NCBI RefSeq assembly: GCF_022458985.1
Contig: NC_061770.1
Span: 37,739,599-37,803,598, forward strand
Length of the DNA stretch: 64,000 bases
Direction: 5' to 3'
From: Mugil cephalus
Lineage: Eukaryota; Chordata; Actinopteri; Mugiliformes; Mugilidae
The notes beneath the pieces were generated by a model. That model was not told the origin of the DNA. It saw nothing but the letters and a program-made list of their open reading frames with translations, and made no database searches. Shown here one piece after another: positions 5,074 to 64,000 of the stretch; within the stretch, counting starts at the first letter, position 1, and every line of letters begins with the position of its first letter. The translations under genes and the position numbers were made by a program.

Positions 5074-5913
5074 ACTCAAAATAACTCAACTCATGCTTTA
5101 TCACAGTGAGCTGCTTGTGGGTCGTTTGTGTGGCTGGTGGACGAGAGACTACTGTGATGCCACTCAGACAAGAATGTAGATTTGTAATAAAGATTTCATG
5201 TTCATGCAATTTTGTGTCGTCTCTACCTTTTTAATTGTAATATTCTGAGACCAGAATAATATGACAGACATTAGATGGAGGTGGAGTCCGTTAGGTCTGT
5301 GATGTCAGGACGGATCATCTTTTAGTGTGAGAAAGTGTCTGCTGTCTGTGGAGAATCAGAGAGATCACAGTCTAATGTTAACAGGAAGACTGTGGTCTGA
5401 CTACCACTCAAAGCCACAAGGCCACTCTGACAAACACAGAAATACATCAGTTTTAAATAGATTAATTGACACACGTAAAGAACAAAACAATCATTTCATC
5501 AACAATCTTCATTGTTGCAAAGCTGAGGTCAGAAGTAATATGTTCAACCACAGGTGATCTTGCAACAAGAAGAAGCTGGAGGCTTCTGACAAGCACAAAA
5601 AACAAGAAGATTCTGCCAAAAGTTAAGAAGTGTCTTCATTTGTATGTTAAATACGCACCAAATACAACAATGCAGTTCTGTGCATAAATTTGAACATATC
5701 AACACTAGTGTTCGTAACAAAGTTGAGGTCAGAAGGAATATCTTCAACCACAGGAAGCCTAACACCCCTACCCCCTCCCTCTTCATCACAAACACATGAT
5801 GACAGTAGCAGTAGTAGAATATCTGAACGTAAATTATGTTCGAGTTCGGTTGTGGGTGATTTTTCTTTGACTCCGCCTCTTCAAAGCCCCTCATGGGCAA
5901 CGCTCTGTTGTCA

Positions 5914-6607
5914 GTCAGGAACTTTATCTTGATGACACCTCTACTTCTCAGCCTCAGTGAGTAATAAACTGCTGCACAGAACCAAGTGCATTGCTGACTC
6001 CATTGATGCGAAAGCATTACTCAGGATTTTGTCGTTTTATCAACCAATGGATCATCAGGCATGTGATGTTTGTTTTAGGTTGGATCTCTGTCTCATTTTC
6101 TGAGGAGGTTCAGTCTGGTGAAGAAGTCACACTGCTGTGCTACAACTTCAGTACTGTTCCCTCACAGGTTTACTGGTTCAGAGTCATCAAGAGATCTGAG
6201 CTCTGCTGTGTCGCCTTCATGTTTGACTCTGTTCACTCCGCTTCCTACAGTGATGGATTCATCTCATCTCATCTTCCATATCACTTAATCCTCGCTAGGG
6301 TCGTGGGGGTTGCTTAACCCCATCCCAGCTGTCATCGCTCGAAGGCAGGTTACACCCTGGACAGGTCTCTGATCTAACGCAGGGCTAACACATAGACAAA
6401 CAACCATTACCACTTACACGCACATCTAGGATCAATTTAGAGTCACCAATTAGCCTAACGAGCATGTCTTCGGAGGTGGGACGAAGTCATGGATTTAAAA
6501 ATGGAAAATTTGACATTAGTTCTAACATGTCCACTGTCTTTCTCAAAATCAAATCGTTGAATTCATCTGACTCTGGACTGTAATTCTGTGGCTTTTACAT
6601 ATTCAAC
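5914..6607 (+). pseudogene. Group B pseudogene B2, split by a repeat insertion
   Basis: The leader exon (5914-5956) has lost its ATG (now GTC). The V exon starts at 6079 and reads WISVSFSEEVQSGEEVTLLCYNFS to SYSDGF. A 229-base dispersed repeat (6260-6488) then interrupts it. The rest (GKFDIS to DSGL-CG) resumes at 6489, where the tyrosine codon of DSGLYFCG is TAA. No transmembrane or tail exon follows before the next flank. The interrupting repeat has a 7-base target duplication, so the insertion is directly readable. Confidence 0.85.
6260..6488. mobile_element. Dispersed teleost repeat inserted in B2
   Basis: The segment has the wording of a common fish dispersed repeat (CAATTTAGAGTCACCAATTA, ACACCCTGGACAGGTC). 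It is flanked by the 7-base duplication ATGGATT at 6253-6259 and 6489-6495, and pseudogene B4 shows the uninterrupted sequence. The family name is not certain; target duplication and short length suggest retroposition. Confidence 0.75.
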
Positions 6608-7540
6608 AAACAAATTCAAAACAGTTTAAAGATCTTTCAAGAGCCATTAAATAATTTTAGTTCAATGTGTCAGATTTGTATCTATATATTCTTTGAATCA
6701 ATGTGTCCTGTACTCTCTCTATGACAGCTGTTGATGGACAGAAATTCCTCCAATTATTATTTATTTATTATTATTTACTATTATCTGTTACATTACTCAC
6801 AAGCTACTAAAATCTTCTCAGTGCAACATCTGTGAATGTGTGTCTGTGTTCTCGTTTGGAGAATCTGGACTCTGAGTTTGTACTTTGCAACAATAAAAAG
6901 CAGGAGGCTTTTATCAGAGAGAGAAGTGAACTACAATGTTCTTTATAGTGTAGACTGAACTTAATTAAAAGTCGTATTAGAAAAGGTGCTCTTTGTGTTT
7001 TGTTGATGAGTGGCAATTTATCTTCTTGTTGACCTTCTGGATCATTAAATTAAGTCTTTGTTCTTAAGTCTGTCTGTCCAGTGTTTTCTAAAGAACATAA
7101 GGTATGTAGTTGAAGGAAGATGAAATTCCAATGACACAAAGGACTGTCCAGAGTCTTCTATGGAGAGACTTTGATGTGGTCAGTCTCTCCATTTCTAACA
7201 GGTGGCATCACACTTGCAACGGCGGAGTGCGTTTTGGGTGATTAGCACCCTTTTGATGGGTAAACAACTGGTAAACAACAACTATTATCTGCTAAATATC
7301 TGACAAATAGGTCACAAACCAGTGCCCAGTGCAGAATAGTAGTGCATGCATGTAACGTATATACGCACGTGTACACCTACAAAACAAGCAGAAACTAACA
7401 AGAGTGGACAGGAAGTATAGTGTGTTACATGTTCATAATGGTGTACGCTATGATGCGTTTAGACCATCTGTAGTGCACGGATCTGATGTCAGAGTGGCTA
7501 AGCACTTATTCCATATATCTGATAGTTTGTGATGTCCTGG

Positions 7541-7967
7541 GACCTAAATGCAGGACAAAAGATAAGGCAGGGCTACAAACCAAAAAGGAATAACTAATAA
7601 ACACAAAACGTAAGGTACTGCAGATGAGATGTATTTCAAAACACGAGAATCAAAAGGAATCATTAACGTGACAAAGGACAAAGAAATGTGGCAAGACAAC
7701 TATAATAAGATGTGAGGACTTAAGCAGAAATGAAACAAAATGGAACAGAGGAAAGACAGGGCTCTATATGCACACATGGGCAGAGGGATAAAGAGACACA
7801 GGTGAAACTAATGAGGATGGAGCACACGAGGAGAAACCAAGGAACAGTCAAGGAAAACACAGGAAGAAACAACAAACAGGAAACCAAGAACTCACCAAAA
7901 TAAAATAGATAAATCAGAACATGAACATGAAAAAACAAAACAAAAAAATAAAATCAGAATTGTGACA
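7541..7967 (+). mobile_element. Solo LTR fossil, partial copy
   Basis: This is the unit-2 counterpart of the LTR at 1710-2169, keeping its right part and right end. It arrived by tandem duplication, not by a separate insertion, since flanks and site match. Confidence 0.65.
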
Positions 7968-8746
7968 GGGAAGAAGAGGCAGCAGTTCTGTATCAGAGCT
8001 CCAGTTGTTTGCCCTCAGATCCAACGGATCACTATTATTTATAGTCACCAACTTGGCCAAGTTTCTGTCCCTGGTGTCTTTGCTGATTTTTCTCATTTTC
8101 TTCAGTTTTTCCATTTTCCATCTTCAGTTAAACCTCCGTTGTCTACTCACGTTTTGTTTATCCTCTGGTAACCATCAAAAATGGTGACAGGGGGAATGTC
8201 ATTCATGTGACTGACAAAGACTGATACTTAGATCATGAAAAATCAAAAGCAAGTTCTGTAGGAGAACTAAATGAAGTTCCCACCCATTTCTGACAGGGAC
8301 ATACAGCATCTTCATGTTTCCTCAATAAATGTTCCTTCTTCTCCATTTCTCATTTACTATAGTGTCAGTCACACATTCTTCCTTTTGGGTTGCTTACCTC
8401 TTTTTGACCAATGTGTATATATCCTACTTTCTCTGTTAGATCAGTTTTTAAACAACAAACAATACATTCCCGCTTGTTTTACATTGCACTTCTAACCTTT
8501 TAAAGTTTTACTAACGTGCAGAGCAACACAGTGCATCCGACTGCACTTGATGTGACTTCCCGTAATGCACTGCAATACCACGGATGACCACACACGTAGA
8601 TAAACTACACAGTCATGAATGGGGGCGCTGTTTCACTACTTTGAAGAAACTGGGATGGGGAGGAGTTATAAAACTCAGACCCAACTAACAAAATAATGAT
8701 TAGTTAGTTAATGGGACATCTGCTAAATTTCCACTCACTGGATGTT

Positions 8747-14176: not shown

Positions 14177-14655
14177 GTGAGGAACTTTATCTTGGTGACA
14201 CTTTGACTTCTCAGCCTCAGTGAGTAATAAACTGCTGTACAGAACCAAGTGCATTGCTGACTCCATTGATACGAAAGCATTACTCAGGATTTTGTCATTT
14301 TATCAACCAAAGGATCATCAGGAGTGTGATGTTTGTTTTAGGTTGTATCTCTGTTTCATTTTCTGAGGAGGCTCAGTCTGGTGAAGAAGTCACACTGCTG
14401 TTCTCCAACTTTATTACTGTTCCCTCACAGGTTTACTGGTTCAGAGTCGTCAAGAGATCCGAGCTCCGCTGTGTCGCCTTCATGTTTGACTCTGTTCACT
14501 CCACTTCATACAGTGATGGATTTAAAAATGGAAAATTTGACGTTAGTTTCAACGTATCCACTGTCTTTGGCGAAATCCAATCGCTGAATTCATCTGACTC
14601 TGGCCTGTATTTCTGTGGCTTTTACATATTCAGCATGAATCCAGTTAATATGTAA
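14177..14655 (+). pseudogene. Group B pseudogene B4 (leader dead, V exon open)
   Basis: The leader (from 14177) reads GTG instead of ATG and has an in-frame TGA. The V exon from 14342 is open: CISVSFSEEAQSGEEVTLLFSNF, YWFRVVKRSELRCVAFMFDSVHS, GFKNGKFDVSF, DSGLYFCGFYIFSMNPVNM, then TAA. The first canonical Ig cysteine is replaced by Phe (LLFSNF). There is no splice donor at the end and no transmembrane or tail exon, as in B1. It is therefore a non-functional leader-V remnant, and it is the fullest reference for the group B V exon. Confidence 0.85.
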
Positions 14656-17414: not shown

Positions 17415-18717
17415 ATGGTGAACTTTACCTTGATACCAGTGTTACTCTGCACCTTCAGTAAGTACATATATTACATTTATCACTGTAACTGCTAGCAGAT
17501 GTTTATACTATTCTATTCTATACTATTCTATATGCACTGTTAAACATTTTTAAACATTTGTTTTCGCACTATGATACATGGCATCCTTACATCTACATCG
17601 CTGCTGCACTTCATATTGTATTTTTATCTTATTCATCTGTAACTGTATTGCATTGTCCTGAGCCATATGCAATGAAATTTCGTTCTGTATACACCCTGTG
17701 CATACACAATGACAATACAGTTCGTCTAAGTCTACTTTAACATAACGGAATTGATATTTACAAACATTTCATGAATAATCTTTTGTTTCAGGTTGGATCT
17801 CTGTCTCAGTCTCTGAGTTTTACACAGTGGAGGTTCAGCCTGGTGAAGAAGTCACACTGCTGTGCTCCAACTTTAGCAGCTTTCCCTTGAGAATATTCTG
17901 GTTCAAACTGGTCAATGGAGCCAATATCACCCGCATCTCATCTATGTTAACATCTGATCAAAATACTTCATTTTATGATGGATTTGGCACTGGCAGATTT
18001 AATATGACATCAAACTCAACTACTCTCTTTCTGAACATCAAGCCTGTGGATTCATTTGACTCTGGGCTGTACTTCTGTGGACTTAACCAAGAACAAGGCT
18101 CAGTAACTGTCTCACTGATGGCTACACATTTAAAGGTTCGAGGTAAGATTACTATGAAGTACTTCTCTATCAATAAGGACCCTTTTTCACACATGATGCA
18201 TATAAGTACTGACTTCAGCACACAAGAGGTTGAATATTTTATGCACAGTTTTATCATTTATCTTTCTTGTAGAAGTGCCAACTGATGAGTTTACAAATGT
18301 GACGACTGTGATCCTGGCCGGTGTAACAGTTTTCCTTCTTATAATCATCATATGTCTGGTCGTCATAATCCACCCCCATAATATAGGTATTTATGTGTTT
18401 TTATTTAAAGTCTACATGCAAATGTTTTCAGTTATTAACTGATGGATTTTGTGTTTCGGTCATTTAGCTCAATATGAGGAAGTGAATCCACAACACACTG
18501 AGGTAATGACATTTTTACCTCAGATTAATATCTTGCATGATTTAATTCTTTCAATAAATGTCATGTGTGAGATCAGTGACTGTAATTGTCTTATTTCCAG
18601 AACATGGGCTCTGATTCTCTGAACTCTCTGAGTTTCCGTCCCAAAGTAAAAAGCCGCAGAAGGCCTGCAGCAGAGAGAGAACTGGAAACACATGTAGTGT
18701 ACGCTGCCACAAGATAG
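17415..18717 (+). CDS. IgV-4: single Ig-V receptor lacking the membrane-proximal ITIM
   Basis: Exons 17415-17457, 17792-18142, 18273-18386, 18468-18502 and 18601-18717 give 219 residues. The V domain is normal (LLCSNFSSFP, DSGLYFCG). The transmembrane segment is VILAGVTVFLLIIIICLVV, but the next residues are IIHPHNI where sisters have basic KIW/KIR. In the last exon a 6-base in-frame deletion turns the usual LNYAALSF into LNSLSF, removing the ITIM tyrosine. The terminal HVVYAATR is kept. All splice sites are intact, so the gene could still make a surface protein with altered or lost inhibitory signalling. AATAAA lies at 18838. Confidence 0.85.
17497..17740 (+). mobile_element. LINE 3' tail in intron 1 of IgV-4
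   Basis: Same insertion as in IgV-3 (GCAATGAAATTTCGTTCTGT, ATGACAATACAG). It is a 5' truncated non-LTR element. Confidence 0.7.
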
Positions 18718-33638: not shown

Positions 33639-35310
33639 ATGGTGAACTTTACCTTGATACCAGTGTTAATCTGCACTTTCTGTAAGTACATCCATTACAT
33701 GTCCTCAGTGTAACTGTTATTGATTATCTATACTTTTAACTATCAGAATGATATTATCTATTGATACTCCCTTGGTAATCTTTTGTGTTAGGTTGTACTC
33801 TATCTCACCTTATAATTCACACTGTGGAGGCTCATCTGGTAAGAAGTCACATGCTGTGCCAACTTTAGCAGTGCTGCTCACAGATTGCCTGGTTCAGAGT
33901 CAAGAACTGGTCTCTGCGTATCGCCCTCGTGTTTGACTCTGTTCAACCTGCTTCGTACAGTGATGGTTTAAAAATGGAAATTTGACGTTAGTTCCAACAT
34001 GACCCGTCTTCCAAAATCCACTCGCTGAATTCATCTGAACTCTGGACTGTATTTCTGTGGCTAATTACATACACAAAAAATCATGTTACTATGGGGAACA
34101 AACTTAGTAGGTCCAAGGTAAAATTCATCTTCTTCTTTGACTTTGTTGAACGTCAGAGGACATGAATCCAAGTTTAAGGTTTTACATTCATGAGAGGATT
34201 TACATTCTTGTTTTCCTCACATTAAAATTGTTCTAGTTCAATTTAATTTTCACTCATTGTAAAAAGCAGTAAATTATATATGTTGATAATCTGCTACTGG
34301 TAATCAAAAGTATAAGAATATTCTGTAAATATTTATTTAAATTTATGTATTTTGGTGTAGGTCGAAGAGAAAAATAAAACACAACGGATCTGTAGTTTGG
34401 GATATAACGCATTGCAATGTTGGAAACTTTGTCCTCTTTGGAAAGCTTCGGTGGACCAAGGAGGGACCGTGTAACTACATGAATCATTTTCTGTATCTCA
34501 GTAAATCTCAATAAATGTTTAATAGATGGCAAGAAGCTGTTTCAATCATCCTAACAGATTCTAACAGTGCCATGGCATAAATAATACATCATGGCTTTTC
34601 AAAATAAAAGCAACACAGTCATATTGCATGCACAGCATAAACACTTGTTAATTTGCTTATGACTGACATACCGCGGGCCAAACAGGGATGCCCAAAGGGC
34701 CGTATGTGACCTGCTCTAGTGTATTTTGCCATTTTATCCATTAATTACACATAAAACTACAAGACACGTAACATTTAATTTAATCTAATTTAATAATCTG
34801 TCTTGTAGAGGTGATTCTGGAGTTAACTAATCTGATGATCTGGGTCCTCGGAGCTCTGACGGTTTTCCTTTTCGTGGTCGTCATCTGTCTGGTCGTTAAA
34901 ATCAGAAAGCTTCACAAAGGTACTTGTTGATGTGTGTTGATGATTTTGATGTTTCACATCTCTTTTTAAGCTGTTTTTGTGACGACAGGCAAATCCATAA
35001 TTTCTTAACCAAATCTATGAGCAGAAATTCTGTTAACCACTCAAACTCTGACTCTTCACAGTAGCTCATGTTGAAGAACAGAAGTCACAAGAGACACAGG
35101 TAGAATTCATTAAGTGTTTACATTTATATGTTTCAGCAGTCACTACTTCCACTTTCTTGTCTGGATATACTTTGTTTCTTTCTTCAGAGACAGAGCTCAG
35201 ACGACCTCGACTATGCAGCTGTGACTTTTCATCCAAAAACTGAAAGACACTACAGGCCTGCCTCAGAAGCAGAAATGGACCCAGATGTTATTTATTCTGC
35301 CACAAAATAG
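33639..35310 (+). pseudogene. IgV-7: group C receptor, V exon degraded
   Basis: The leader exon (33639-33681, MVNFTLIPVLICTF) is intact. The V exon (33792-34117) has many 1-2 base losses compared with IgV-8 and cannot be read through. The 3' exons are clean: transmembrane 34809-34919 (MIWVLGALTVFLFVVVICLVV), linker 35065-35099, tail 35188-35310 (RQSSDDLDYAAVTFHPK to DVIYSATK) with an ITIM-like LDYAAV. The contrast between a ruined V exon and intact tail exons suggests either recent decay or a patchwork by gene conversion with IgV-8. Confidence 0.85.
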
Positions 35311-40898: not shown

Positions 40899-42021
40899 AT
40901 GGTGAACTTTACCTTGATACCAGTGTTAATCTGCACTTTCTGTAAGTACATCCTTTACATGTCCTCAGTGTAACTGTTATCTGATTATCTATACTTTAAA
41001 CTACCAGAATTGATACTTATCTATTGATACTCATTGGTAATCTTTTGTTTCAGGTTGTATCTCTGTCTCACCTTATGAATTTCACACTGTGGAGGCTCAG
41101 TCTGGTGAAGAAGTCACACTGCTGTGCTCCAACTCTAGCACTTCTCCCTCACAGATTCACTGGTTCAGAGTCAAGAGATCTGGTCTCTGCCGTATCGCCC
41201 TCGTGTTTGACTCTGTTCAACCGGCTTCATACAGTGATGGATTTAAAAATGGAAAATTTGACGTTAGTTCCAACATGACCACTGTCTTTCTCAAAATCCA
41301 CTCACTGAATTCATCTGACTCTGGACTGTATTTCTGCAGCTTTTACATATTCAACAATGATCTTTTTATCATAAATGCAACAAACTTAGAGGTCCAAGGT
41401 AAGAATTTCTTTCTTTTGATTTTGTTGAACATCAGGAGAACAAGACAGTTCAAGGTTTTATATTCATCAGGGTAGTGAATTTCTTCCTTTCCTTGCAGTA
41501 AAATTGCTCAAGTGTATTGTGCCATTTTATCCATCAATTACACTTAAAACTACAAGACAAATAACATTTAATTTAATCTAGTTTAATAATCTGTCTTGTA
41601 GAGGTGAAGTTAACTAATCTGATGATCTGGGTCCTCGGAGCTCTGACGGTTTTCCTTTTCGTGGTCGTCATCTGTCTGGTCGTTAAAATCAAAAAGCTTC
41701 ACAAAGGTACTTTTGCTTTAGTTGAAGTTGATGATTTTGATGTATCACGTCTCTTTTTAAGCTGTTTTTGAGATGAAAGCTCAATCCACAATTTCCTAAT
41801 AAAATCTATGAGCAGAAGTTCTGTTAACCACTCAAACTCCGACTCTTTACAGTAGCTCATGTTGAAGAACAGAAGTCACAAGAGACACAGGTAGAATTCA
41901 TTAAGTATTTACATTAATGTGTTTCAGTAGTCACTACAATCACTTTGTCATTGTCATTGAATGTTTTTCTTTACTGAATATGCTTTTTTTTTTCTTTCTC
42001 CAGAGACAGAGATCAGACTGA
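40899..42021 (+). CDS. IgV-9: group C receptor with tail cut before the ITIM
   Basis: Exons 40899-40941, 41054-41398, 41602-41706, 41856-41890 and 42004-42021 give 181 residues. V domain: CISVSPYEFHTVEAQSGEEV, LLCSNSS, IHWFRVKRSGLCRIALVF, DSGLYFCSFY. Transmembrane MIWVLGALTVFLFVVVICLVV, then KIKK. In the last exon a 4-base loss after RQRSD gives an immediate TGA at 42019. The codon that should be the ITIM tyrosine is CGT (Arg). The remaining tail sequence (DSDVIYSPAK, to 42122) stays recognisable but out of frame. The product would be a tailless membrane receptor; the stop is in the last exon, so the mRNA need not be degraded. Confidence 0.8.
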
Positions 42022-42122
42022 ACCGTGCAGCTGTGACTTTTTATCCCAAAACTGAAAGACATGACAGATGTGTCTCAGATGGAGAAGTGGACTCAGATGT
42101 TATTTATTCACCTGCAAAGTAG

Positions 42123-42929
42123 TATCAGTGAGGACCTGGTGCAGCACAACAGAGTGGAACTTCTGCTTTATCATGAACCCACTGATTGTTGTGACCCATC
42201 GCAATTCTCAAGCCAGAAAGTCAGACATTTGACAGAGAGTCACGCAAAGTGGGCATTACCCTTTTTTATGTTCCTGCTTCTATGTTTCATTCTGTACATA
42301 CATAATCTTGGCAGTTGTTTTTTTGTACAAGATTGATGGACACTATCATAAGAGTCACCCTCACCTCTGAAACTTGCAAAAATATTTTGCACAGTGGAAA
42401 ACTTATTAACCGAATGTTGCATGTTCGTGCACAGCAAAGCCACAGCAGAAGCGTTTCGCATCAATCTCTACTGCACTGAGATGTGTTTGCACGTCTATCA
42501 TAAATAACTGGTGTGAATGGAAATGTAAAGCTGTATTTATCTGCAGCTTTATATTTGTGAGAATGCCGATAATTCAGCATGCCAACTCATGCTTTACCAT
42601 TTGTTTGCCATTTTATTTGCCGGGGTGAGGATGAGGTCTTTTTCTAAACTTAACGTAAATTCAACTAAACATAAGCAATGGAAATGTCTTAATTTTGTTC
42701 AAATAAAGGTCTGATTTCAGTCCAAATTGTTGTTGTTTATTGCACACTTGACCCAGTACCTTAATTTTATTTGTTTGTCAGTGTATTTTTAAATTGGGAT
42801 TTTGCAAGTACTAAAGCAGAAAGTGGCTTTACACAGTGATCGGTGTTTCCTATTATTGGCAGATATGCATACTTCCACAACAAGACAGGCATATTTTCTG
42901 ACCTTTAAATTGCAGAAAATAATACTTTA

Positions 42930-46425: not shown

Positions 46426-47610
46426 ATGAGGAGCTTCACCTTGATAATAGCTTTACTTCTCTGCATCCCCAGTAAGTGCTAATTATTCAATAACCACCGC
46501 GATTTAAAAACTAATTCATAAAGTTGTTATTAGCTTTATTAGCTGAAGGGTACGTCTATTGCTGTTTGCGTCAGGTTGGATCTCTGTCTCAGATTCAGAG
46601 TCGCAGTCTGTGACCGTCCATCCTGGGGAGGAAGTCAAACTGATGTGCTCCAACTTTTCCTTCGTTCCCACTGAGATAATCTGGTTCAGAGTCGTCGAGA
46701 GGTCCAAGCTCCAGTGTGTCGCCAGCATGATTAAGTCTCTTCAGCCCGCTTCATACTGTGATGCATTTCGAAGTGGAAAGTTTAAAATGACTTCCAACGT
46801 GTCCACTGTCTTTCTCAAAATCAAACCGGCAAATTCATCTGACTCCGGACTATATTTCTGTGGATTTTACATGTTTCGCAACTATTCTGTTATCGTCCAG
46901 GCAACACATTTAGAGGTCCAAGGTAAGATTTTCATCTTCATTCGTTTAATTTGTTGAACATCGGGAAGAACTGAATCAAATTTTAAGATTTTAGATTCAT
47001 CATATCAGCTCAGTTCTTCGCTCCTCACATTGAAATTACTGAGTGTACTGTGCCAAGTCATACTTAACTCATATCTAAAGATACAAGACATAAATCACTT
47101 TATTTATTTACTTTATTTATAATCTGTCTTATAGAGGTGATTCAGGAGTTAACTAATCTGACGAGTGTGGTCCTTGGAGCTCTGATGGTTTTTCTTGTTG
47201 TGGTCGTCATCCGTCTGGTCGTTAAAATCAAACAGCTCCAGAAAGGTACTTCTGTTTTAGTTGATGATGATGGCCAATCCATGACTAAATGTATAAGTAG
47301 TACAATTACTGAATATTACTGACCACTTCAACTCTCATTTACAGTAGCTCGTACTGAAGAACAGAAGCTGCAAGAGACACAGGTAGCGTTCATAAGTATT
47401 TACATTCGTGTATTTCAGCAGCCACTATAATCACCTTGTCGTGTGTCACTGAATGTCACTTTTTTTTTGACTGAAAATCTTATTTCTTTCTTTCCACAGA
47501 GACAGAACTCAGACGACCTGAACTATGTAGCTGTGGCGTTTCATCCCAAAACTGAAAGACACCAAAGGCCTGCCTCAGATGAAGAAATGGACTCAAATGT
47601 TACTTATTAA
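46426..47610 (+). CDS. IgV-10: ITIM receptor with shortened C-terminus
   Basis: Exons 46426-46471, 46575-46922, 47135-47245, 47348-47382 and 47500-47610 give 216 residues. Leader MRSFTLIIALLLCIPS; V domain WISVSDSESQSVTVHPGEEV, LMCSNF, IIWFRVVERSKLQCVASM, ASYCDAF, DSGLYFCGFY, so it has the second cysteine pair. Transmembrane TSVVLGALMVFLVVVVIRLVV, then KIKQ; an Arg replaces the Cys of sister genes near its inner end. The tail has ITIM LNYVAV (Y189), but the protein stops at NVTY, cutting the C-terminal tyrosine motif right after its Tyr. All splice sites are standard. Confidence 0.85.
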
Positions 47611-48856
47611 GTTACTTATTCAGCACCTGGAGCTGCTGTTTTATCGTGAATCCACTGGTTGGTGTGGTCCATCGCAGTTCTCAAAGCAAAAAAAAAATTT
47701 TAAAAAATTGACTTTGGACACAAAAACACAAAGTGGACATTATTCTTGTTTATTCACCTGTCCGGTTCTGTCTTTTGATTGCTTCATGTTTAAAACTGAT
47801 TTTTTTTTGTGTTTCCATGGTGGGGGATCCAGCTGACCCGTGCCCTATTGTAGATTACTGAGAGTTCACTTGAGGTTTTCAAGAGCACAGTTTCACATTT
47901 AACTGTCGTTTCAACCACTCAGCAGTCGTGCACTGTACAGTGCTGAAACACCCACAATGCAAGCACCTAAGACGGTTTTGTGTAGCTACATATTGATTTA
48001 ATCCAATCTTGTCTTTGTATTACACTGTCTTGATGTTGCACTTTGCAGTCCTGATACCAGCTCTGTGTTTTGAAATCCTCTCCTGATGGTCGTCTGATGA
48101 ACTGCAGCAAGAGATTGTCTTGGGTTGAGAGGAACTAACGTCACTTCGAGTTTATGTCATGTTACTCTTCTCCGTCTCAAATGTACTTATTTAGTTTGCT
48201 TTAGATTTCAGTCAGAGGACAAAAGGGTGTGATTCTCTCTGCCTTTTCAATGTGATTGGTGCTTGGTGGTAGAGAGCGTAATAACCCTAGGGCTCTGAGC
48301 GTTGCTCGTGTCACTTGTTGACAGGAAGAGACAGCACGTTGCGGTCTGAGGTGAAAATCAAGTGGTCAAAGCTGCCTTTAATGGAATAAACAATGAAGCG
48401 GTAAACACTGTGTGGCTTTCATCGACAATGGAAACTAAATTCTCAAGCTATGCGCGGCGCCTGCAGCCCACGGTGGAGTCGAAAAATTGATCAGCAAAAG
48501 ATACAGCTTAGGACTTTAGAGCGCGATCGAGTGTGAACATGGTGAAATCTAAACCACAGGAAGAGGTTGTGAGCTGCATGGTATTTTTTCCTGTGTATAA
48601 AGTTCACATTGCAGCAGCCACACAGGAACCTTCATCAAGTCTGCCACAGCTTGTGAACACACAGCCTCCCTGCCAGCTTGACTATTCAGATAGTTTTGGC
48701 GGACTTTATGTGTTGAACGACAAAAGAACAGCAACACACACATCATCTGAAGTTGTAGTCTGATTGGCTGTAAGAGCATCCAATGTCAGAGATGCCACCC
48801 TGACAGGTCAAAGGTTGGCTTGGTGTGTAACAGGAGGTTTATAGACCCCTCCATGG
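47611..48856 (+). other. 3' flank of IgV-10, no gene
   Basis: It contains 3' UTR-like sequence and the second ETS/RUNX-like block at 48321. An open frame at 48533-48763 shows no domain or splice context. No gene is called. Confidence 0.5.
48321..48360 (+). promoter_or_regulatory. ETS/RUNX-like composite site upstream of IgV-11
   Basis: GGAA (48324-48327) is followed after 12 bases by TGCGGT (48340-48345), which fits the RUNX consensus TGYGGT, in the same block as 45747-45780. The 1.5-kb inverted-repeat element now separates it from the IgV-11 promoter. Confidence 0.4.
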
Positions 48857-50365: not shown

Positions 50366-50789
50366 ATGCTAGTTGATAAACCAGAAGGCCAGTGACGTCG
50401 CCTTCTGGTTTTGGACTTGTTGAACTTCTTAGAGCCACAGTTGACCATATTTTGGACAAGTGGGAGGTGCTGGGGAACAATTTATTAAAGCCATCTCAGG
50501 GAAAATTTTCACTTTTGAGAGCTGGTGACTACTGCCATATTTTACATACAGTCCATGGAGCCAATATAACCACCTAAGGAGCAGCTTCTAGTCAAAATGG
50601 TGAAAAGCTCTTTTATGCTGTACAACAGCTCGGTATACAGGCTTGGCTTTGAACAGGTGAGGACCATGTTTTATTTGTAATTTTGTAAATTAATTGTAGA
50701 TCAGAGAAACATTAGATGTTCACTTACATCACAGGCTGACGTGTCCCTCAGCGCAGAGTGTGCACTGTACTTAAAACACGTACAACACT

Positions 50790-50821
50790 CCGCCTCTTTC
50801 CAACTAAGCCCCCTATATAAG
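50790..50821 (+). promoter_or_regulatory. Upstream promoter of IgV-11 with TATA box
   Basis: CCGCCTCTTTCC (50790-50801) is followed by TATATAAG (50814-50821), about 45 bases before the first leader ATG. The corresponding place in the second IgV-11 promoter and in IgV-12 reads TGTACAAG, so only this copy keeps a good TATA box. Confidence 0.6.
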
Positions 50822-50865
50822 ACCTGAGCATAAAGTGTGACTGCAGTAAGAGGATCAAACACACA

Positions 50866-50911
50866 ATGAGGAGCTTTGAAGTGATAATATCTTTACTTCT
50901 CTGCAGCCTCA
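50866..50911 (+). CDS. Alternative or orphan leader exon upstream of IgV-11
   Basis: ATG opens MRSFEVIISLLLCSL and the exon ends in a GTAAGT donor with the same phase and length (46 bases) as the IgV-10 and IgV-12 leaders. No V exon lies between it and the second leader at 51190. It could splice to the IgV-11 V exon as an alternative first exon, or be the remnant of a deleted gene. Transcript data would decide. Confidence 0.55.
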
Positions 50912-51109
50912 GTAAGTTCTGACACTTAATACTTCAATGTCCACTGCTGCTATGACAACTTCTGTCTACAGCTGTTGCTTTATAGACTGAAAACTCACTC
51001 TCCACCACTGTATTGTGCTTAAAAAAAATGAAAACAACTGACTGTTTTTTTTCTTAAGGTTTAACATTTCCTGCTCGTAGGTCATTTATTCAGAAACGCA
51101 TATAACACC

Positions 51110-51121
51110 CCGCCTCTTTCC
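51110..51121 (+). promoter_or_regulatory. CCGCCTCTTTCC box of the second IgV-11 promoter
   Basis: It lies about 70 bases before the ATG at 51190 and is followed by AAGCCCCCTGTACAAGACCT. The surrounding sequence is nearly identical to the IgV-12 promoter. Confidence 0.55.
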
Positions 51122-51189
51122 TACCAAGCCCCCTGTACAAGACCTGAGAAACGAAGTGTCATCACATTGAGACTATCAAAGACGACACG

Positions 51190-53059
51190 ATGAGGAGCTT
51201 GACAGCACCGACAGCGTTACTTCTCTGCAGCCTCAGTGAGTTCTTAGACATTATTCAACGTCCACTGCTGTGATAAAACCGTTCACTGCAGCTGTTACTC
51301 ACTCTCCTGTTGTGTGTTTTCAGGCTGGATCTCTGTCTCTGCTTCTGAGTCTGGGATTGTGAACGTCCAGCCCGGCAAAGAAGTCACACTCATGTGCTCC
51401 AACAACTCTTTACGTCCAACTCAAACATTCTGGTCCAAACTGATCAACACAACCAAGATCAGATGCATCTCTTCTATGTACGGGTTTAGTGGAGCTACTG
51501 ATTACTGTACAGGATTTGAAAATGGAAAATTTCACATGAGCTCCAACATTTCTGATGTCTTCCTCAAAATCAAACAAGTGGATTCATCTGACTCTGGACT
51601 TTACTTGTGTGGATATTACGAGAAAGGACATACATTCATGGATGTGAAACATTTAAATGTTCAAAGTAACAGTGGAGGTTTCCTGTGGTTTTTGTAGAAC
51701 ATTGTTGTGATATGTTCTTTTTGAATTTAGTCTTAGAACGGATAAACTAAAAGACAATTCATATGATTTTGATCTCATCGTATATCATTAAAGGCGATGG
51801 GGAATCCCGTGATGGTAATGAGGATTTTGCCAAGAGTGGAGGCAAGAATGTGGTTACGATCTTATTGTGCAAGCTGCTAATTTAAGATTTATATTTATAT
51901 GTTCAAGGTAAGAGTGGAGTCTTGACTAGATTCAGAATTTCTGTCTCACAATTAACTTAATGTCATATTTCTCATATAAGGAAACGAAACCAGCGATTAT
52001 GATAAAGTCCAGTGTAAAGGTAGGAATCTGTTAAATGTTTGTACGTGATTATTTAGGCTGCTCATGTAAGATTTGATGTTATTTCTAAAAGGGACTAAAT
52101 AATTAAATACATTTATCTTCCTTGAAGTAGAATCTGACTTACCAGCAAGACTGACCAGTGTGATCCTTGGTGGAGTGACTGTTCTCCTGTTAATGGTCAC
52201 CGCTGTTCTGATACTTCAAAGAGGTAGCTTTTCAGTGCTGCTGCGTCTGTCTGCACGTTTTCATACACAGACAGGTGGAGTGAATCCCCTAATCACAGCG
52301 GATGTGTTTGAAGCAGGAAAGTTGGACGAGAGGATAAGAGCGACTTTGAAAAGGGCCAAACTGTGATGGCTAGCTTAATGGCACATAGGTCTTCCATATG
52401 TGTAGCAATTAAAAGTGACCCAAGGAAGGAAAAGTGGTGGTCAGAGTCATCATAGTTTATTTCATATGGGGCTACGTAACCAAAAGAACAGTCAGAGTAC
52501 CCATGGTGACATATGTCCACTGCAAATAGAGCTTACAATGGACACCAGAACTCCCTTGCATTTCCCTTACATCGTACAGATGGCAGCAATCCTTGCTAGT
52601 GCATGGGGTTGCATCCAGTCGGCTGCAGTGTTCAGGTGGTGATTCATATCAAAGCAAAATCCACATAAACGCCAGTACCCAGGCTTCCCAGAAGCACAAT
52701 GCATCATAATGAGATCGTCTGTGTTATGTACTTCACTAGTTGGTGGTTTTAAAGTTGGGACTGATCACTGTATATGTTCTACTCATGTTTATATCTTATT
52801 ATGTTTCTTTTAGCCAAGAATGAAACACAATATCCACATAAAGATCCGGTCAGTCCATCTTTCCATTTCAGGATCATTTGTGTCCTGTACATTTAATCAT
52901 CTCAAACTGTTTGTGAATCCAACTGAGTATGAGTTGACTGACTCCTGTTCACAGGATCTGGACTCTGAGGAGCTGAGGGCTGCAGCCATAAGAAGGAGGG
53001 TGATGTCTGCCTCAAAGAGAGAGATGGAGACTCATGTTATCTACGCTGCCAGCAGATAG
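51190..53059 (+). CDS. IgV-11: stalked Ig-V receptor without the first ITIM
   Basis: Predicted exons 51190-51235, 51324-51665, 51794-51841, 51981-52019, 52131-52223, 52814-52848 and 52955-53059 give 235 residues. Leader MRSLTAPTALLLCSLS; V domain with LMCSNN, TFWSKLINTTKIRCISSM, DYCTGF and DSGLYLCGYY (two cysteine pairs). Two small exons form a stalk. Transmembrane TSVILGGVTVLLLMVTAVLIL. The tail has ELRAAAIRRRV where sisters have LNYAALSFRPK, so no ITIM tyrosine; a terminal HVIYAASR remains (Y231). The V exon donor is weak (AAA-GTAACA) and the first stalk exon uses a GC donor, so this model is less sure than the others. Confidence 0.7.
52225..52645 (+). mobile_element. Decayed Tc1-like remnant in an intron of IgV-11
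   Basis: It contains GAAGCAGGAAAG, GACTTTGAAAAGGGCCAAAC and TGTGATGGCTAG, the start region of a common fish Tc1-type transposase, then TATGGGGCTACGTAACC and further fragments. It is heavily deleted. It enlarges the intron between the transmembrane and linker exons. Confidence 0.7.
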
Positions 53060-53164
53060 ACTCAGGCAGCAGCTTCCCCAGCAAAGCTTTGTCCTATATA
53101 TCTGCTTGTATTGTCTTGTGTAACCGAGGGGAGGGGTTACAAACAAATCTGAATCTGCTATAAA

Positions 53165-54470
53165 TAAAAAACACTTTTATTCTGGAATATATGTGTTAGA
53201 GTTTTCTCTGTGTCGCAAAAAGTTATTTTGTGTAAAGAGTGTGATTGGTGCGTGATGGAGTAGGAGGTTGTGTTGAAGTGAGAGCTAGGGGTGGACGTGT
53301 GCAGACAGGAAGAGGCAGCTCAGTGTGGTCTGAGCTCAGACGGGGTGAAGATCTCGAGGCGGTGAAACTGTGAATACGTGCAAAATGAGATCAGCATGTG
53401 CAGTTATCGCCACACATTTTAATATAAAAACTGAATGAGTAGACAGAGTAGACATCACAGACCACTGACTCTTGTGGATGAGGGTATTACCTGGAGAACA
53501 GAGTGGCAAAAGTGGGAAAGATTACACATTACACCCTGATAGCACTAGATGGAACTAAACAGTTATTGAAGAATCATAAAAAATAAATATTCATCACCCT
53601 ACATTACTTATGATGCAGCCTGAATGCTGTCAACTATGTATGTGTCATGCAGCTGACATACAGTAGACTCATCCCTAAAGAGGAGCAGACTACAGGCAGC
53701 TTCTAAGACCATTTTGTTTTTCAACCCCACCCCCTCATTTTTTTTTCTTTCATTTTCAAACCTGCCATCTTCAGCCAACTCCTGCCACACTTTGCACAGC
53801 TCCCTCTAGAGCCATTAATGCATTATACAACTCTGTTGACATGTACTGGTCCCTGATGTAAACACCTCTGCTTCAGCACTTTAAAGTTAAGTGTGGTTTC
53901 CTCACTTTCATCTGCTTCGTCGTCTGCCCACACTCATGAGAGACACTATGTACAGAAAACTTTTACAGAGGAATTTTAATAAAATTGTTTTTGTACAAGA
54001 TTATGATGCTGTAAGTGAAGTTGACCTTTGACCTTTTGGATATAATTTTACCAAATTAGACATCTGTCTTTTTGTTTGCACTATACGCTCACAAATTCTT
54101 CTTTTATGAAGTCTTTGTGACCTTTGACCTGTCTGACTACCCGCGGCCATATCTGTTGCCAGTTTTGAGTCATCAGTGTGGAAAGATATTTGTTAATATG
54201 CAAGTTTTGTACATTTATGTTTGTACTTTTTTCTTTTATTTTACTAGAATTTTACTTATATTTTATTTTACCAGATTTTTGCCCATATTTTATTTTTTTT
54301 CTAGATTTTTACTTTATGTTATTTTTCTAGATTTTTATTATATCTTATTTTTATTTTACTTAAGTTTTATTTATAGACCAAGGATAAATCACTTAAATAA
54401 AATCTGCCTGATAAAGTGAAGTAGACCAAAAGATCTTCAAAATCTAAACATTTTGCCGAGATCCAAAGAA
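53165..54470 (+). other. 3' flank of IgV-11, no gene
   Basis: It contains the polyadenylation signal (AATAAA, about 53163), the third ETS/RUNX-like block (53305) and a T-rich stretch near 54230-54370. No gene is recognised. Confidence 0.5.
53304..53335 (+). promoter_or_regulatory. ETS/RUNX-like composite site upstream of IgV-12
   Basis: GGAA (53308-53311) is followed after 12 bases by TGTGGT (53324-53329), in the same block and spacing as 45747-45780 and 48321-48360. Confidence 0.4.
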
Positions 54471-55303
54471 ATTCAGGAACAAATGAGAAACAAAGTATTT
54501 ATCTGATCTATCAGTCTGGAAAAAAGGTTATAAAGCCATTTCTAAAGCGTTGGGACTCCACAGCAAACCACATTGAGAACCATTATCCACAAATAGAGAA
54601 AAGATGGAATAATGGTGAACCTTCCCAGGAGTGGCTGGCCGACCAAAATTACCCAGGAGCTCAGCGACAACTCACTCAAGAGGCCACAAAAAAGACCCCA
54701 CAACAACATCCAAAGAAGAGCAGGCCTTACTTGCCTCAGTTAAGGTCAGTGTTTATAACTCCACCATAAGAAAGAGACTGGGCAAATACTCCCCCCAGAC
54801 TCATTGCTGTTTTGCTGCTTCAGGACCTGGAGGACTTGCAGTGATAAATGGAACCATGAATTCTGCTGTTCCAAAACATCCTGAACAAAAAAGATCCGCC
54901 CGTCTGTTGGTGACCTCAAGCTGGAGCCAACTTGGGACAATGATCCAAAACACACCAGCAAGTCCATCTCTGAATGGCTGAAGAAAACCAAAATGAAGAC
55001 TTTGGAGTGTCCTAGTCAAAGTCCTGACCTGAATCCTGTTGAGATGACCTTAAATAAAAAGTGGTTCATGCTGGAAACCCCTCCAGTGTGACTGATTACA
55101 ACAATTCTGCAAAGATGAGTGAATCAAAATTCCTCCGGAGCACTGGAAAAGACTTGTTGCATTTGTCGCTGCTAAGGGTGGCCCAACCAGTTGTAGGTTT
55201 AAGGGGCAATCACTTTTTCACACAGGGTCATGTAGGTTTGGACTTTGTTTTGCAAAAACTAACCAATCAGGAAGGGGGCCACATTTTTTCACACCACTGT
55301 AGT
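54470..55303 (+). mobile_element. Decayed Tc1-like DNA transposon upstream of IgV-12
   Basis: The transposase relic includes SGRPTKITQELSDNSLKRPQ-like sequence near 54640, PRSSATTHSRGHKKDP, and [19 protein letters not shown] in another frame, with internal losses. The right end GGGGCAATCACTTTTTCACA and TTTTTTCACACCACTGTA matches the inverted repeat of a known fish Tc1 type. It ends directly at the start of the block shared by IgV-11 and IgV-12. Confidence 0.85.
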
Positions 55304-55394
55304 GGGCTTAAAAAAATGAAAACAAGAGACTGTTTTTCTTAAGGTTTAACATTTCCTGCTCGAAGGTCATTTATTCAGAAACGCATATAACACC

Positions 55395-55406
55395 CCGCCT
55401 CTTTCC
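55395..55406 (+). promoter_or_regulatory. CCGCCTCTTTCC core promoter box of IgV-12
   Basis: It lies about 70 bases before the leader ATG and is followed by AAGCCCCCTGTACAAGACCT, as in the second IgV-11 promoter. Confidence 0.55.
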
Positions 55407-55474
55407 TACCAAGCCCCCTGTACAAGACCTGAGAAACGAAGTGTCATCACATTGAGACTATCAAAGACGACACG

Positions 55475-56720
55475 ATGAGGAGCTTCACAGCACTGACAGC
55501 GTTACTTCTCTGCAGCCTCAGTGAGTTCTTAGACATTATTCAACGTCCACTGCTGTGATAAAACCATTCACTGCAGCTGTTACTCACTCTCCTGTTGTGT
55601 GTTTTCAGGCTGGATCTCTGTCTCAGCTTCTGAGTCTGGGATTGTGAACGTCCAGCCCGGTGAAGAAGTCACACTCATGTGCTCCAACAACTCTGTAGGT
55701 CCAACTTACACATTCTGGTCCAAACTGATCAACACAACCAAGGTCAGATGCATCTCTTCTATGTACGGGTTTAGTGGAGATCCTAAATACTGCACAGGAT
55801 TTGAAAATGGAAAATTTCACATGAGTTCCAACATTTCTGATGTCTTCCTCAAAATCAAACAAGTGGATTCATCTGACTCTGGACTTTACTTTTGTGGATA
55901 TTACGAGAAAGGACATACAATCATGGATGTGAAACATGTAAATGTTCAAGGTAAGAGTCGAGGCTTCCAGTGGTTTTTGTAGAACTTTGTTGTGATATGT
56001 TCTTTTTGAATTTAGTCTTCGAACTGATAAACTAAAAGACAATTCATATGATTTTGATCTCATCGTATTTCATTAAAGGCGATGGGGAATCCCGTGATGG
56101 TAATGAGGATTTTGCCAAGAGTGGAGGTAAGAATGTGGTTACTATCTTATTGTGCAAGCTGCTAATTTAAGATTTATATTTATATGTTCAAGGTACGAGT
56201 GGAGTCTTGATTAGATTCAGAATTTCTGTCTCACAATTAACTTAATGTCATATTTCTCATATAAGGCGACAAAACCCCACCCAGCGATTATGATGAAGTC
56301 CAGTATAAAGGTAGGAATCTGTTAAATGTTTCTATGTGATTGTTTTTGAGAAAGTCAAGCTGAATTCAGTTTTGTCCTCGTAGAGCCCAATGACGTAACA
56401 GAGCTTACGAGTATGATCCTGGCCGCGCTGGCTTTTATTCTCATAATAATCATCATTGGTCTCCTCGTCAAAGTCAGAAAACTTCAAAAAGGTACATCTG
56501 AAATCTGCACCTGGTTCTCTTTGGTTGTCTTCTAATCTCCTAACTGAGATTTTATTTATTTTTTTTTTCAAATCACTTACCTGTAGCTGTTGATGAAAAC
56601 CCCAATCCTGAAGAGATCCACTACGCAGCGCTCAATTTCAATAAAAAATCAAGAACAACCCATAGGTGTCCGCCGGAGAGGCAGCTGGAGCCAAACGTGG
56701 TGTACGCCGCCACCAGATAA
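55475..56720 (+). CDS. IgV-12: stalked ITIM receptor, best inhibitory candidate
   Basis: Exons 55475-55520, 55609-55950, 56079-56126, 56266-56310, 56384-56491 and 56587-56720 give 240 residues. Leader MRSFTALTALLLCSLS; V domain with LMCSNN, TFWSKLINTTKVRCISSM, KYCTGF and DSGLYFCGYY (two cysteine pairs). Two stalk exons read GDGESRDGNEDFAKSG and GDKTPPSDYDEVQYK. Transmembrane TSMILAALAFILIIIIIGLLV, then KVRK. The linker and tail are one exon here: ITIM IHYAAL (Y209), a perfect I-x-Y-x-x-L, and a terminal NVVYAATR (Y236). All donors are GTAAG/GTAGG-like. An inhibitory role through SHP phosphatases is inferred from motif knowledge. Confidence 0.85.
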
Positions 56721-61516: not shown

Positions 61517-62657
61517 TTAATAAGCGTAGCGTGTGGGCGGCGGCGGAGGCAGGCGCTCGGCGTAGGGGTCCCGTGCACGTGGGACTCCGTATGCAGGGAC
61601 CCGGGGGACCGGCGAGAGGCGGGAGCGCTCGTAGGAGTAGCCGTTACCGGCGGGGGGCATCGGCGCGCTCGGCGCCCTCCGGAGGGGGCTGCGCTCTCGG
61701 GCGTAGTATGAGGACGGGGGCGGGGGGATGGGCCGACGGTCGTACGGGTCAAGCGACGGGTTCATAAGGCGGTCTCGGACGACGGAGGCGGGGGGAGGAG
61801 GCGGGGGCGGCGGCGGGGGCGGGGCGCCGGCACGCTGCTCGTCGTAGGAGGCGATGCCGTACGGCCGGGCCCTGTACTTCTCATAGTAATCTACCACGCC
61901 GTACCTGTCCCGCTCGCCCTCGTACGGATAAACGGCTCGTCTAGGGGGAGGGGGCGGCAGTGGGGGGGCGGGGTAACCCGGGGGCATGTGGCCCATGCGG
62001 CCCCGCATGTAGCTGGGTGGGGGAGGCTCAGGCCCCTCTCCGGGATAGTGCGGGGGCCAGTAGCCGCCCCGGTCCGGAGGAGGAGGAGGGTAGTCGTCCC
62101 GCTCTTCGTGTCTGGGTCGGCTCTTGGAAATCTGGACGTGGATGCGTTTGCCTTAGGGACAAAAAAAAAAACGAGAGCGAGGGTTAAAGACAAAACAAAA
62201 GGTTTGAAACTAGACTCATCGATTGTTTTTTTTCCCCGCATCTCTCACCCTGAAACTGCGAGTTGTCCAGTCCCTTGATGGCGTCCATGGCCTCGTCGGA
62301 GTTGGACATGTGCACGAAGGCGAAGTTCTTGACCACGGCGCACTCGGAGACGGTGCCGTACTCCTCGAACAGGGCGCGGAGCTCGTCGTCGGCGCCCTTC
62401 TCCACGTTGGCCACGTGCAGCTTCACCGAGCCCTGGTTCTTGCCCCGGCTCGCCTCCACGTTGATCGGCGTGCCGTGGAGCTTGTGCAGGTGCAGGCTCT
62501 TGATGGCCTTGGTGGCGGCCTTGCGGTCGTCCATGTGGACGAAGGCGTAGTTCTTGATGATGTCGCACTCCGTGACCGTGCCGTGCTCGGTGAACAGGGC
62601 CTTGATCTCCTCCTCGTCCGCCTCCCGGGGCAGATTTCCCACGAAGATTTTGACCAT
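61517..62657 (-). CDS. rbm4: rbm4-like RNA-binding protein (two RRMs, no zinc knuckle)
   Basis: Two coding exons on the minus strand, 62657-62249 and 62151-61517, give 347 residues. RRM1 (about 2-72) has RNP2 IFVGNL and RNP1 [11 protein letters not shown]2 (about 79-148) has LHVANV and KNFAFVHM, then KRIHVQIS as in RBM4/Lark. The C-terminal part is Pro/Arg/Tyr-rich and has SLDPYDRR and [10 protein letters not shown], both RBM4 hallmarks, and [10 protein letters not shown], which recalls RBM14. RBM4 acts in splicing choice and translation control. The CCHC zinc knuckle that follows RRM2 in mammalian RBM4 is missing. The ATG at 62657 is preceded by an acceptor-like CTGAAACAG, so a 5' UTR intron is likely. 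Codon use is GC-rich, unlike the receptor array. Confidence 0.9.
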
Positions 62658-63177
62658 TGTTGCTGATCTGTTTCAGGAAGATTGAGACACAACAGGGGCA
62701 TGAACAGCTGGAAGAGGCAATGACACAATCAACAACACGAATAAGAGTATTTATTAAATGAATAAATAAGTAAATAAACAAAACAAGTCTTCTTATATAT
62801 GGTACAAAACAATATCCCATTTTTTTTTCTTTGTCAGGCCTGTTCATTGTAAAATGGCTGACGTCAATTCAATGCAAGTGCACACATTTCAACACGAATG
62901 GGTGCAAATAAAAGACGTTTTCCTTCATATTAAAGTGTATTTGTGGTGTTTTTAATGTTACACATCTACAGTGAAGGGAAATTAGCTGAACGAGTCCAGG
63001 TCACGCCTTTGATAATGAGCTTCTGCTAGCTGTTAGCTTGGTAGCTAAATCACGCTCATGCACAACGTACTGCAGCCGATGTTAGCACACACGCACACAC
63101 AGGCAAGAAACACGTTCAACAAAATCAAAATAGAGTCGATACGGCGAAATTGTGATATAAACACGCCAACGCGTACC

Positions 63178-63413: not shown

Positions 63414-64000
63414 CAGTCACAGACAAAATACTAAACAAATCCAAAAAATTGATCAGTTCTATAAAAATACATAAGAGATTTTGGGTATTTGGATCATTTT
63501 GTTATTAAAAGACACATTTTTCTGTTGCCGTGCTTCATGTCTATACAAAGCCAGTACATTTGAAAGCTCTTCAGAGACAAAAATGGCTAAAACAAGGAAC
63601 CTAACGCAGGAAACACACCTGAAGATTCAGATTCTCAGCTAGGAAGGGTACAGCTGCCACCAAATCACCAGGAAGTGCAGATGCTAGTCCTTCAGTTGGA
63701 TAAACTCAGCAGAAATACAGACGAACCAACAGCTTGGAGGACAAACCAAGATCTGGGCGTCCAAGAGTTTCTTCGGCAAGAAATTACCTCATCCTGACCC
63801 ACATGTGCAGAGGAAACCCCCGAATGACATCACAGGAGCTCCAACAGCAGTGGTCAAACCAAACTGGTGTCGTGTGTTAGATCATGGTGGACTTTTAGAT
63901 CATAGCTTAAGGTCCTACAAGGCTGTCAAGAAGCTCCTGATCAATGAGACAAAGGTTAGCCCAGTGTTGTTGGGCCCAAGAACACAAGAAGTGGACAGTC
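63414..64000 (+). mobile_element. Tc1-like transposon, cut by window end
   Basis: It begins after TA with CAGTCACAGACAAAATAC. The relic transposase reads MAKTRNLTQETHLKIQI, RPRVSSARNYLILTHMCRGN, RMTSQELQQQWSNQTGVVC and DHGLRSYKAVKKLLINE in changing frames. It is decayed, and its right end lies outside the window. Confidence 0.85.

Follow-up and report, generated by a model that had tools for sequence, protein, structure and literature searches.

The origin of the brake-less partners of inhibitory receptors is a long-standing question in innate immunity and has been studied mostly in mammalian pairs. As far as the available parts of the reports describe them, Siglec-11/Siglec-16 (PMC5701461) and CD300A/CD300C (PMC12447643) are receptors of opposite signalling whose similar ectodomains are kept alike by gene conversion. 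The chicken BG genes are tandem, same-strand receptors with immunoglobulin variable (IgV) domains, with independent front and back histories and, in some members, immunoreceptor tyrosine-based inhibitory motifs (ITIMs), and the accessible sections of that report attribute the BG hybrids to unequal crossing-over or deletion (PMC4046983). We analysed a stretch of 64,000 nucleotides of Mugil cephalus (C1:37739599-37803598, hereafter the window), which holds a cluster of IgV receptor genes resembling the BG genes in these respects, and two neighbours, IgV-11 and IgV-12, with similar ectodomains as in the mammalian pairs. The original prediction described these two genes as chimeric twins with the same front half, different back halves and the layout of paired inhibitory/non-inhibitory receptors. 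We consider it likely that IgV-11 is a chimera, an older gene next to IgV-12 that received a copied block of ~1.05 kb from the IgV-12 locus, and in our working model IgV-12 is inhibitory and IgV-11 lacks the brake.

The two front halves were 94.7% identical over 1058 alignment columns, between 51003..52054 in IgV-11 and 55292..56345 in IgV-12 (window positions; forward strand here and below, except where stated). This interval is slightly wider than that predicted (51010-52045 and 55305-56345), and the near-identity from promoter to stalk exons held. In IgV-11 it comprises 8 bp of a Tc1-like transposon end plus TA, a promoter, the leader, the V exon, both stalk exons and part of the intron between the stalk and transmembrane (TM) exons. 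When the genome (634.8 Mb in 24 contigs) was searched with the block, the only close copies listed were those of IgV-11 and IgV-12 (100% and 95%). At least 29 further matches, each at most 81% identical, were all on C1 between 37.52 and 37.79 Mb; these counts are lower bounds. The right edge of the match falls inside the intron preceding the TM exon, and this sharp break supports the description of the genes as chimeric twins. Beyond it, the intron remnants were no more alike than chance (995 of 1000 shuffles scored equally or higher), and weak homology was seen in the TM exons (3 of 1000 shuffles reached the score) and the last exons (0 of 1000). On the other side, upstream of the block, the score of the real alignment was matched by 133 of 1000 shuffles. 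Differences occurred at 21 of 573 aligned sites in the non-coding part of the block and at 18 of 342 in the V exon (95.0% identity in nucleotides and 90.3% in amino acids). Since 11 of 113 V residues differ, the V domains of the ectodomains, predicted to be the same, are alike but not the same. The in-frame V comparison by the NG86 method gave dN 0.050 and dS 0.058, and the differences were not significantly enriched in the variable columns of the V alignment (P=0.09).

The left edge of the block suggests the direction of copying. Immediately upstream of IgV-12 lies a 5'-truncated Tc1-like element (54380..55302; the 5' limit is approximate), the 3' end of which abuts the block, so that the block begins in IgV-12 at the TA beside the element. 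The assignment draws on a DDE_3 transposase trace that falls short of the Pfam gathering score (E=5e-5), on two 23-nt direct repeats near the end (55201 and 55272), on the terminal TA and on dispersed copies; the 5' end is missing. At least 41 matches to this repeat family were obtained from the best 40 of 810 candidate places, on many chromosomes. When the presumed ends of 10 genomic copies were compared, a recognisable terminus was found in four (L035, L036, L038 and L041), one of which (L041) carries all 8 letters CACCACTG, and the other six had no terminus within the compared stretch. The junction string CACCACTGTA occurs in the window only at 51003 and 55292. In IgV-11, the 8 bp of the Tc1-like end and the TA are fused directly to intron sequence that follows an older leader exon, which lies with its promoter at 50774-51002. 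Because the IgV-11 block opens with the final 8 bp of the element flanking IgV-12, the block was probably moved from the IgV-12 locus into IgV-11. Of the two breakpoints, the right one lies in the stalk-TM intron, and the left one had to be corrected to the transposon end in IgV-12. A literature search with the terminus string found no paper.

The segment 50774..51002 is itself a stranded promoter and leader exon that ends within its own intron. The old leader exon (50866-50911) is 46 nt long with a GTAAGT donor, and a TATATAA box is located at 50814. Compared with the leader and promoter sequences of IgV-11, of IgV-12 and of the gene at 46.3 kb, the segment was 73-80% identical, and its intron was homologous to the IgV-12 leader intron up to the junction (0 of 1000 shuffles scored equally). 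A splice from the old leader to the V exon of IgV-11 would be in phase, and the TATATAA of the old promoter stands where the block promoter reads TGTACAA; IgV-11 may therefore have two promoters.

Both genes gave open models with consistent splice phases. The IgV-11 model (236 aa) consists of a leader exon (51190..51235), a V exon (51324..51665; Pfam V-set E=3.6e-10), two stalk exons (51794..51841 and 51981..52019), a TM exon (52128..52223) and two cytoplasmic exons (52814..52848 and 52955..53059), the first of which is 35 nt long, a length common to ten other window genes. The IgV-12 model (240 aa) consists of a leader exon (55475..55520), a V exon (55609..55950; Pfam V-set E=3.5e-10), two stalk exons (56079..56126 and 56266..56310), a TM exon (56384..56491) and a single cytoplasmic exon (56587..56720), which begins much like the first cytoplasmic exon of its relatives and looks like a fusion, by intron loss, of their two cytoplasmic exons. 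The V-set assignment is above the curated Pfam cut-off, and a V fold was predicted for IgV-12 (mean pLDDT 84). This fold was near T-cell receptor beta, antibody and other V domains among the 50 structural matches listed, with no family singled out; that NITRs are missing from this list carries no weight. The 60 listed Protein Data Bank sequence matches were mostly antibodies and included NITR10, and did not discriminate.

The predicted perfect ITIM of IgV-12, IHYAAL, was located at 56616 in its complete model, upstream of a C-terminal VVYAATR. No strict ITIM was found in the IgV-11 model, where the last exon reads LRAAAI in place of the L[N/D]YAA[L/V] of its relatives and retains the C-terminal VIYAASR. 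A scan of 52020-55475 revealed five ITIM-like codon strings, none convincing as part of a hidden exon; acceptor-like AGs accompany just one of them, VLYIYV at 54204, which is embedded in T-rich DNA of low complexity and was rejected. The predicted lack of an ITIM in IgV-11 was thus upheld, although read-through splicing into the IgV-12 tail may occur. The TM core of the IgV-11 model is free of charged residues, and no immunoreceptor tyrosine-based activation motif (ITAM) was seen by eye in its tail.

To place the contrast between front and back, V identity was compared with that of the TM and cytoplasmic exons among ten window genes with intact V exons; for the relatives, the limits of the back half were set approximately, and in the gene at window 42.0 kb they take in a last exon with a frameshift. 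The values for IgV-11/IgV-12 were 0.950 for V and 0.565 for the back half, a gap of 0.385, against a mean gap of 0.040 (sd 0.052, maximum 0.119) in the other 44 pairs. This gap was also the largest among the 31 cluster pairs in which V identity was 0.90 or more. The back halves had been called unrelated in detail; they are indeed different (56.5% identity), but unrelatedness was ruled out. The IgV-11 last exon matched each of 8 family tails, including that of IgV-12, with a score reached by 0 of 2000 shuffles, and both tails end in V[V/I]YAA[T/S]R. Its N-terminal part alone was not significant against most tails (23 to 306 of 2000 shuffles scored higher), and the two TM segments were slightly more alike than chance (29 of 2000). 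In the tail tree, the IgV-11 tail grouped with two ITIM-less cluster tails (support 0.82) and the IgV-12 tail with a set of ITIM tails (support 0.81). These comparisons indicate that the two tails are diverged members of one family.

On the preferred account, the block comprising promoter, leader, V exon and two stalk exons would be a copy taken from the IgV-12 locus together with the terminal 8 bp of the transposon ahead of it. It would have landed in an older gene between the leader intron and the stalk-TM intron, replacing the V exon and leaving the old promoter and leader stranded upstream. The result would be one ectodomain on two family tails, that of IgV-12 with an ITIM and that of IgV-11 without the ITIM tyrosine. 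ITIMs are generally known to inhibit through SHP-type phosphatases, as outlined in the available part of PMC1193534, and IgV-12 would be inhibitory via phosphorylation of IHYAAL and recruitment of such phosphatases. IgV-11 would bind the same or a similar ligand without the brake and might act as a competitor or as a weak receptor through the tyrosine of its C-terminal VIYAAS, rather than as a DAP12-type activator. The cluster appears to have reached the same outcome repeatedly, through exchanges within the introns on either side of the TM exon, through exchanges of V exons and through minor lesions of the ITIM.

This recurrence was surveyed in 293.6 kb, in which 230 kb of upstream sequence was joined to the window (survey position p corresponds to C1:37510000+p). 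A tblastn search detected 56 V-like and 51 tail matches. Of the V matches, 44 make up the 42 V exons used, 2 are broken copies that served to delimit genes, and 10 were set aside as fragments or remnants; of these 10, the one at window 14344 is almost full length and lacks a tail of its own. A stop codon was present in 3 of the 42 V exons. A strict ITIM at motif 1, with Met or Ser allowed at -2, was found in 32 of the 51 tails; the remaining 19 included 5 fragments and 14 that were not, 3 of which keep a tyrosine with Ala at +3. A tail precedes the next V exon in 39 of 42 cases (26 with an ITIM and 13 without), and 38 of these 39 tails retain the C-terminal tyrosine motif, which in one of them (window 42.0 kb) is out of frame with the first cytoplasmic exon.

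Three pairs of V twins criss-cross between the two kinds of back half. In 25507/35941, 43999/20478 and 73639/84023 (survey positions, as for the other genes named by one number below), V identity within the pairs was 0.994, 0.962 and 0.997, respectively, and that between pairs was 0.79-0.82. The non-ITIM backs (25507, 43999 and 73639) were 0.914-0.937 alike and the ITIM backs (35941, 20478 and 84023) 0.788-0.854 alike, whereas ITIM and non-ITIM backs shared 0.686-0.763. The match between 73639 and 84023 (99.1% over 3471 columns) ends 3 bp past the TM exon; those of 25507/35941 (94.2%) and 20478/43999 (88.7%) extend ~120 bp past it and then drop to 70% and 77%, respectively. The tyrosine is still present in LNYVAA of 43999, the V domain of which has lost its second cysteine, and in LNYAAA of 73639. 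A different kind of exchange was seen in 6700/67452, where the V exon and some 12-15 bp on each side are common (369 columns, 94.9%) and the 6700 flanks at 5000-6687 and 7057-8223 match nothing else in the cluster. Farther downstream, the two genes have other common stretches in a different order; the tail at 9132 was assigned to 6700 across 2.1 kb. Two related window genes with intact V exons have small lesions instead: a 6-nt deletion removes the ITIM tyrosine (LNYAAL to LNSL) in the gene at 17794..18717 (the V most similar to its own lies outside the window and has an ITIM tail), and a 4-nt deletion cuts the tail before the ITIM position (RQRSD stop) in that at 41056..42130.

Nine of 12 reciprocal-best V pairs were discordant in ITIM status, against 5.47 expected with shuffled tail labels (P=0.027); two of these pairs include a V exon with a stop, one discordant (147201/152294) and one concordant (197801/204447). 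At V identity of at least 0.94, 7 of 8 pairs were discordant (P=0.014), or 6 of 7 without the doubtful tail assignment of 147201 (P=0.026). Because the pattern was noticed in the same data before testing and five versions of the test were run, the discordance beyond chance is suggestive only. With 147201 left out, 31 of 703 pairs had a V identity of 0.90 or more, and in these last-exon identity averaged 0.783 for the 14 discordant and 0.937 for the 17 concordant ones. We tentatively propose, as a possibility short of an even chance, a standing pairing system in which fronts are recombined with ITIM and ITIM-less backs via the introns flanking the TM exon or by V-exon exchange, so that recent V duplicates would tend to come in both forms, one copy with the brake and the other without it. 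Within this set, IgV-11/IgV-12 is the widest front/back contrast and the only transposon-tagged case.

Several observations weigh against the preferred account of IgV-11. The transposon tag is only 8 bp long (chance ~8e-6 at a fixed place), its wider flank was matched by 9 of 1000 shuffles, and the termini of L035, L036 and L038 differ from CACCACTG at one or more letters. The polarity of the V differences did not point to either direction of copying, since of 17 differences 4 were changes on IgV-11, 3 on IgV-12 and 10 unclear. The excess of discordant pairs is modest and depends on counting motifs of the LNYAAA type as non-ITIM; when tails were labelled by the presence of the tyrosine, discordance fell to 7 of 12 pairs (P=0.11) and to 5 of 8 (P=0.14). 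The functional roles are read from motifs only. Among the 40 donors found for the 42 V exons, that of IgV-11 (AAA|GTAACA) alone has a G at neither -1 nor +5, and the first stalk exon of this gene has a weakened GC donor. Neither the V dN/dS near 1 nor the open frames give a sign of constraint: in simulations of neutral drift, the frame of IgV-11 stayed open in 46-67% of runs for the front and in 12-26% for the back, too often for open frames to serve as proof. The weak donors, the dN/dS and the other broken members of the array would suit the reading that IgV-11 is a decaying by-product of ordinary tandem-array turnover, with the missing ITIM and weak donors functionless. We regard this as somewhat unlikely, as the frame is open over all seven exons (itself weak evidence), the tail retains the C-terminal tyrosine motif as nearly all V-assigned tails do, and V twins with and without an ITIM recur. 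The cluster makes it testable whether such pairing is selected or a by-product of turnover.

Gene conversion, by which the front halves of two older paralogues would have been homogenised in place, in either direction and with no foreign block, would account for both back halves being diverged family members, and conversion of ectodomains is described for paired receptors in the accessible text of PMC5701461 and PMC12447643. A simple conversion should end in homologous sequence, but the left edge lies where transposon meets leader intron, and an additional leader and promoter are kept upstream in IgV-11; we consider conversion unlikely. That the duplication is an assembly artefact, a false duplication or misjoined haplotypes, is most improbable. 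Tandem arrays are hard to assemble, and another cluster pair is 99.1% identical over 3.5 kb, but here the 5% divergence is spread across introns and exons, the flanks differ on both sides, the window contains no N and the contigs are chromosome-scale. The layout of paired inhibitory/non-inhibitory receptors is plausible for IgV-11/IgV-12 from these models: the ectodomains are near-identical, one partner has an ITIM and the layout recurs in the cluster. The short ITIM-less tail would also suit a canonical activating receptor paired with IgV-12. Activating NITRs carry a TM charge, as described in the consulted part of PMC2442602, and an activating role of IgV-11 is unsupported because its TM core is uncharged; neither a charged residue in the TM core nor, by eye, an ITAM was found in the IgV-11 model, and its C-terminal tyrosine is the family one. 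A charged activating partner was thus rejected for IgV-11, and such a role is very unlikely. Accordingly, that part of the original prediction concerned with layout stood and did not extend to an activating partner, with the reservations on dN/dS and donors given above.

Other features of the cluster were noted. A window gene at 46577-47613 has an ITIM (LNYVAV), an Arg at the inner TM end (VVVVIRLVVKIK) and a tail that stops after the C-terminal tyrosine (VTY stop). A TM candidate at C1:37614799-37614906 (survey 104799-104906) has an Arg in its outer half (VALRGLTVV), and the ITIM tail of this gene is frameshifted past the ITIM; TM candidates at survey 26139, 36555 and 97897 have Asp at the position matching this Arg. 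A further tail type, [D/H]ELNYxALSF.GKAKRGRS, occurs at survey 9132, 29419, 50177, 65932 and 155064, and these tails except 9132 have no assigned V; the set of V exons may thus be incomplete. Scattered through the cluster are V copies, broken or incomplete, that are related to the genes at 37 and 41 kb, at window 1015-1314, 6069-6609, 14332-14650 and 33782-34121. Beyond the last receptor gene seen, a two-RRM protein gene (RRM_1 E=2.8e-28) is located on the reverse strand at 61517-62672, which we take to resemble RBM4/RBM14, and frames at 63688-64000 may represent another Tc1-like transposase piece. Among viral contigs, five pattern matches were obtained, none of them a relative.

The gene family resembles two described families of teleost receptors in layout. 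Like the NITRs, as far as the available text describes them, these are clustered fish V-domain receptors with leader, V, TM and two cytoplasmic exons and with ITIM/itim tails (PMC2442602). By the same text, nearly all NITRs have a J or J-like motif at the V-domain C-terminus, and a second (I) Ig domain with conserved cysteines identifies them. The motif [FW]GxG[TS] was found in none of the 42 V exons extended by 30 nt, a search that did not cover looser J-like variants. No second Ig domain was found in the IgV-11 and IgV-12 models, which have only two short stalk exons between V and TM; one-domain NITRs are known, so a single Ig exon alone is not decisive. NITR genes are linked to men1/map4k2 on zebrafish chr 7 and medaka chr 18. 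Of these two genes, Menin was searched for here and is located on C1 as well, at C1:34.89 Mb and ~2.6 Mb away from the first V exon detected. In the consulted part of PMC3022915, teleost NILTs have exon sizes of 46, ~342, connecting, 96-120, 35-50 and last, with an ITIM in the last exon. This layout of leader of 46 nt, V, connecting, TM and two cytoplasmic exons is seen in IgV-11 but not in IgV-12 with its single cytoplasmic exon. The V domains of Atlantic salmon NILTs described there have CX3C, CX6C or CX7C, whereas those of IgV-11 and IgV-12 have Cys 24, 47, 61 and 95, that is CX13C, with none of the three NILT spacings; the extra pair is absent in many relatives. The family thus resembles NITRs and NILTs in layout and fails both the J motif and the CX3C/CX6C/CX7C test.

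No report of front-back swapping between ITIM and non-ITIM receptors in a fish Ig cluster was found among the literature matches listed, in a search with most subscription journals outside it. The closest phenomenon, judged from the parts of the reports available, is that of the chicken BG hybrid genes, followed by Siglec-11/Siglec-16 and CD300A/CD300C. These two pairs differ in being mammalian and in having an activating partner; the fish partner merely lacks the ITIM, and several pairs occur in one cluster. The BG hybrids, as described in the accessible sections, combine promoter and 3'-end lineages and are framed by tissue expression (PMC4046983), whereas in the fish cluster the exchange crosses ITIM and non-ITIM backs. 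A single segment of a fish chromosome thus offers several young cases of differing age (V exons 95% to 99.7% identical) with mapped breakpoints and, in IgV-11, unlike the BG hybrids, a transposon end that gives the probable direction.

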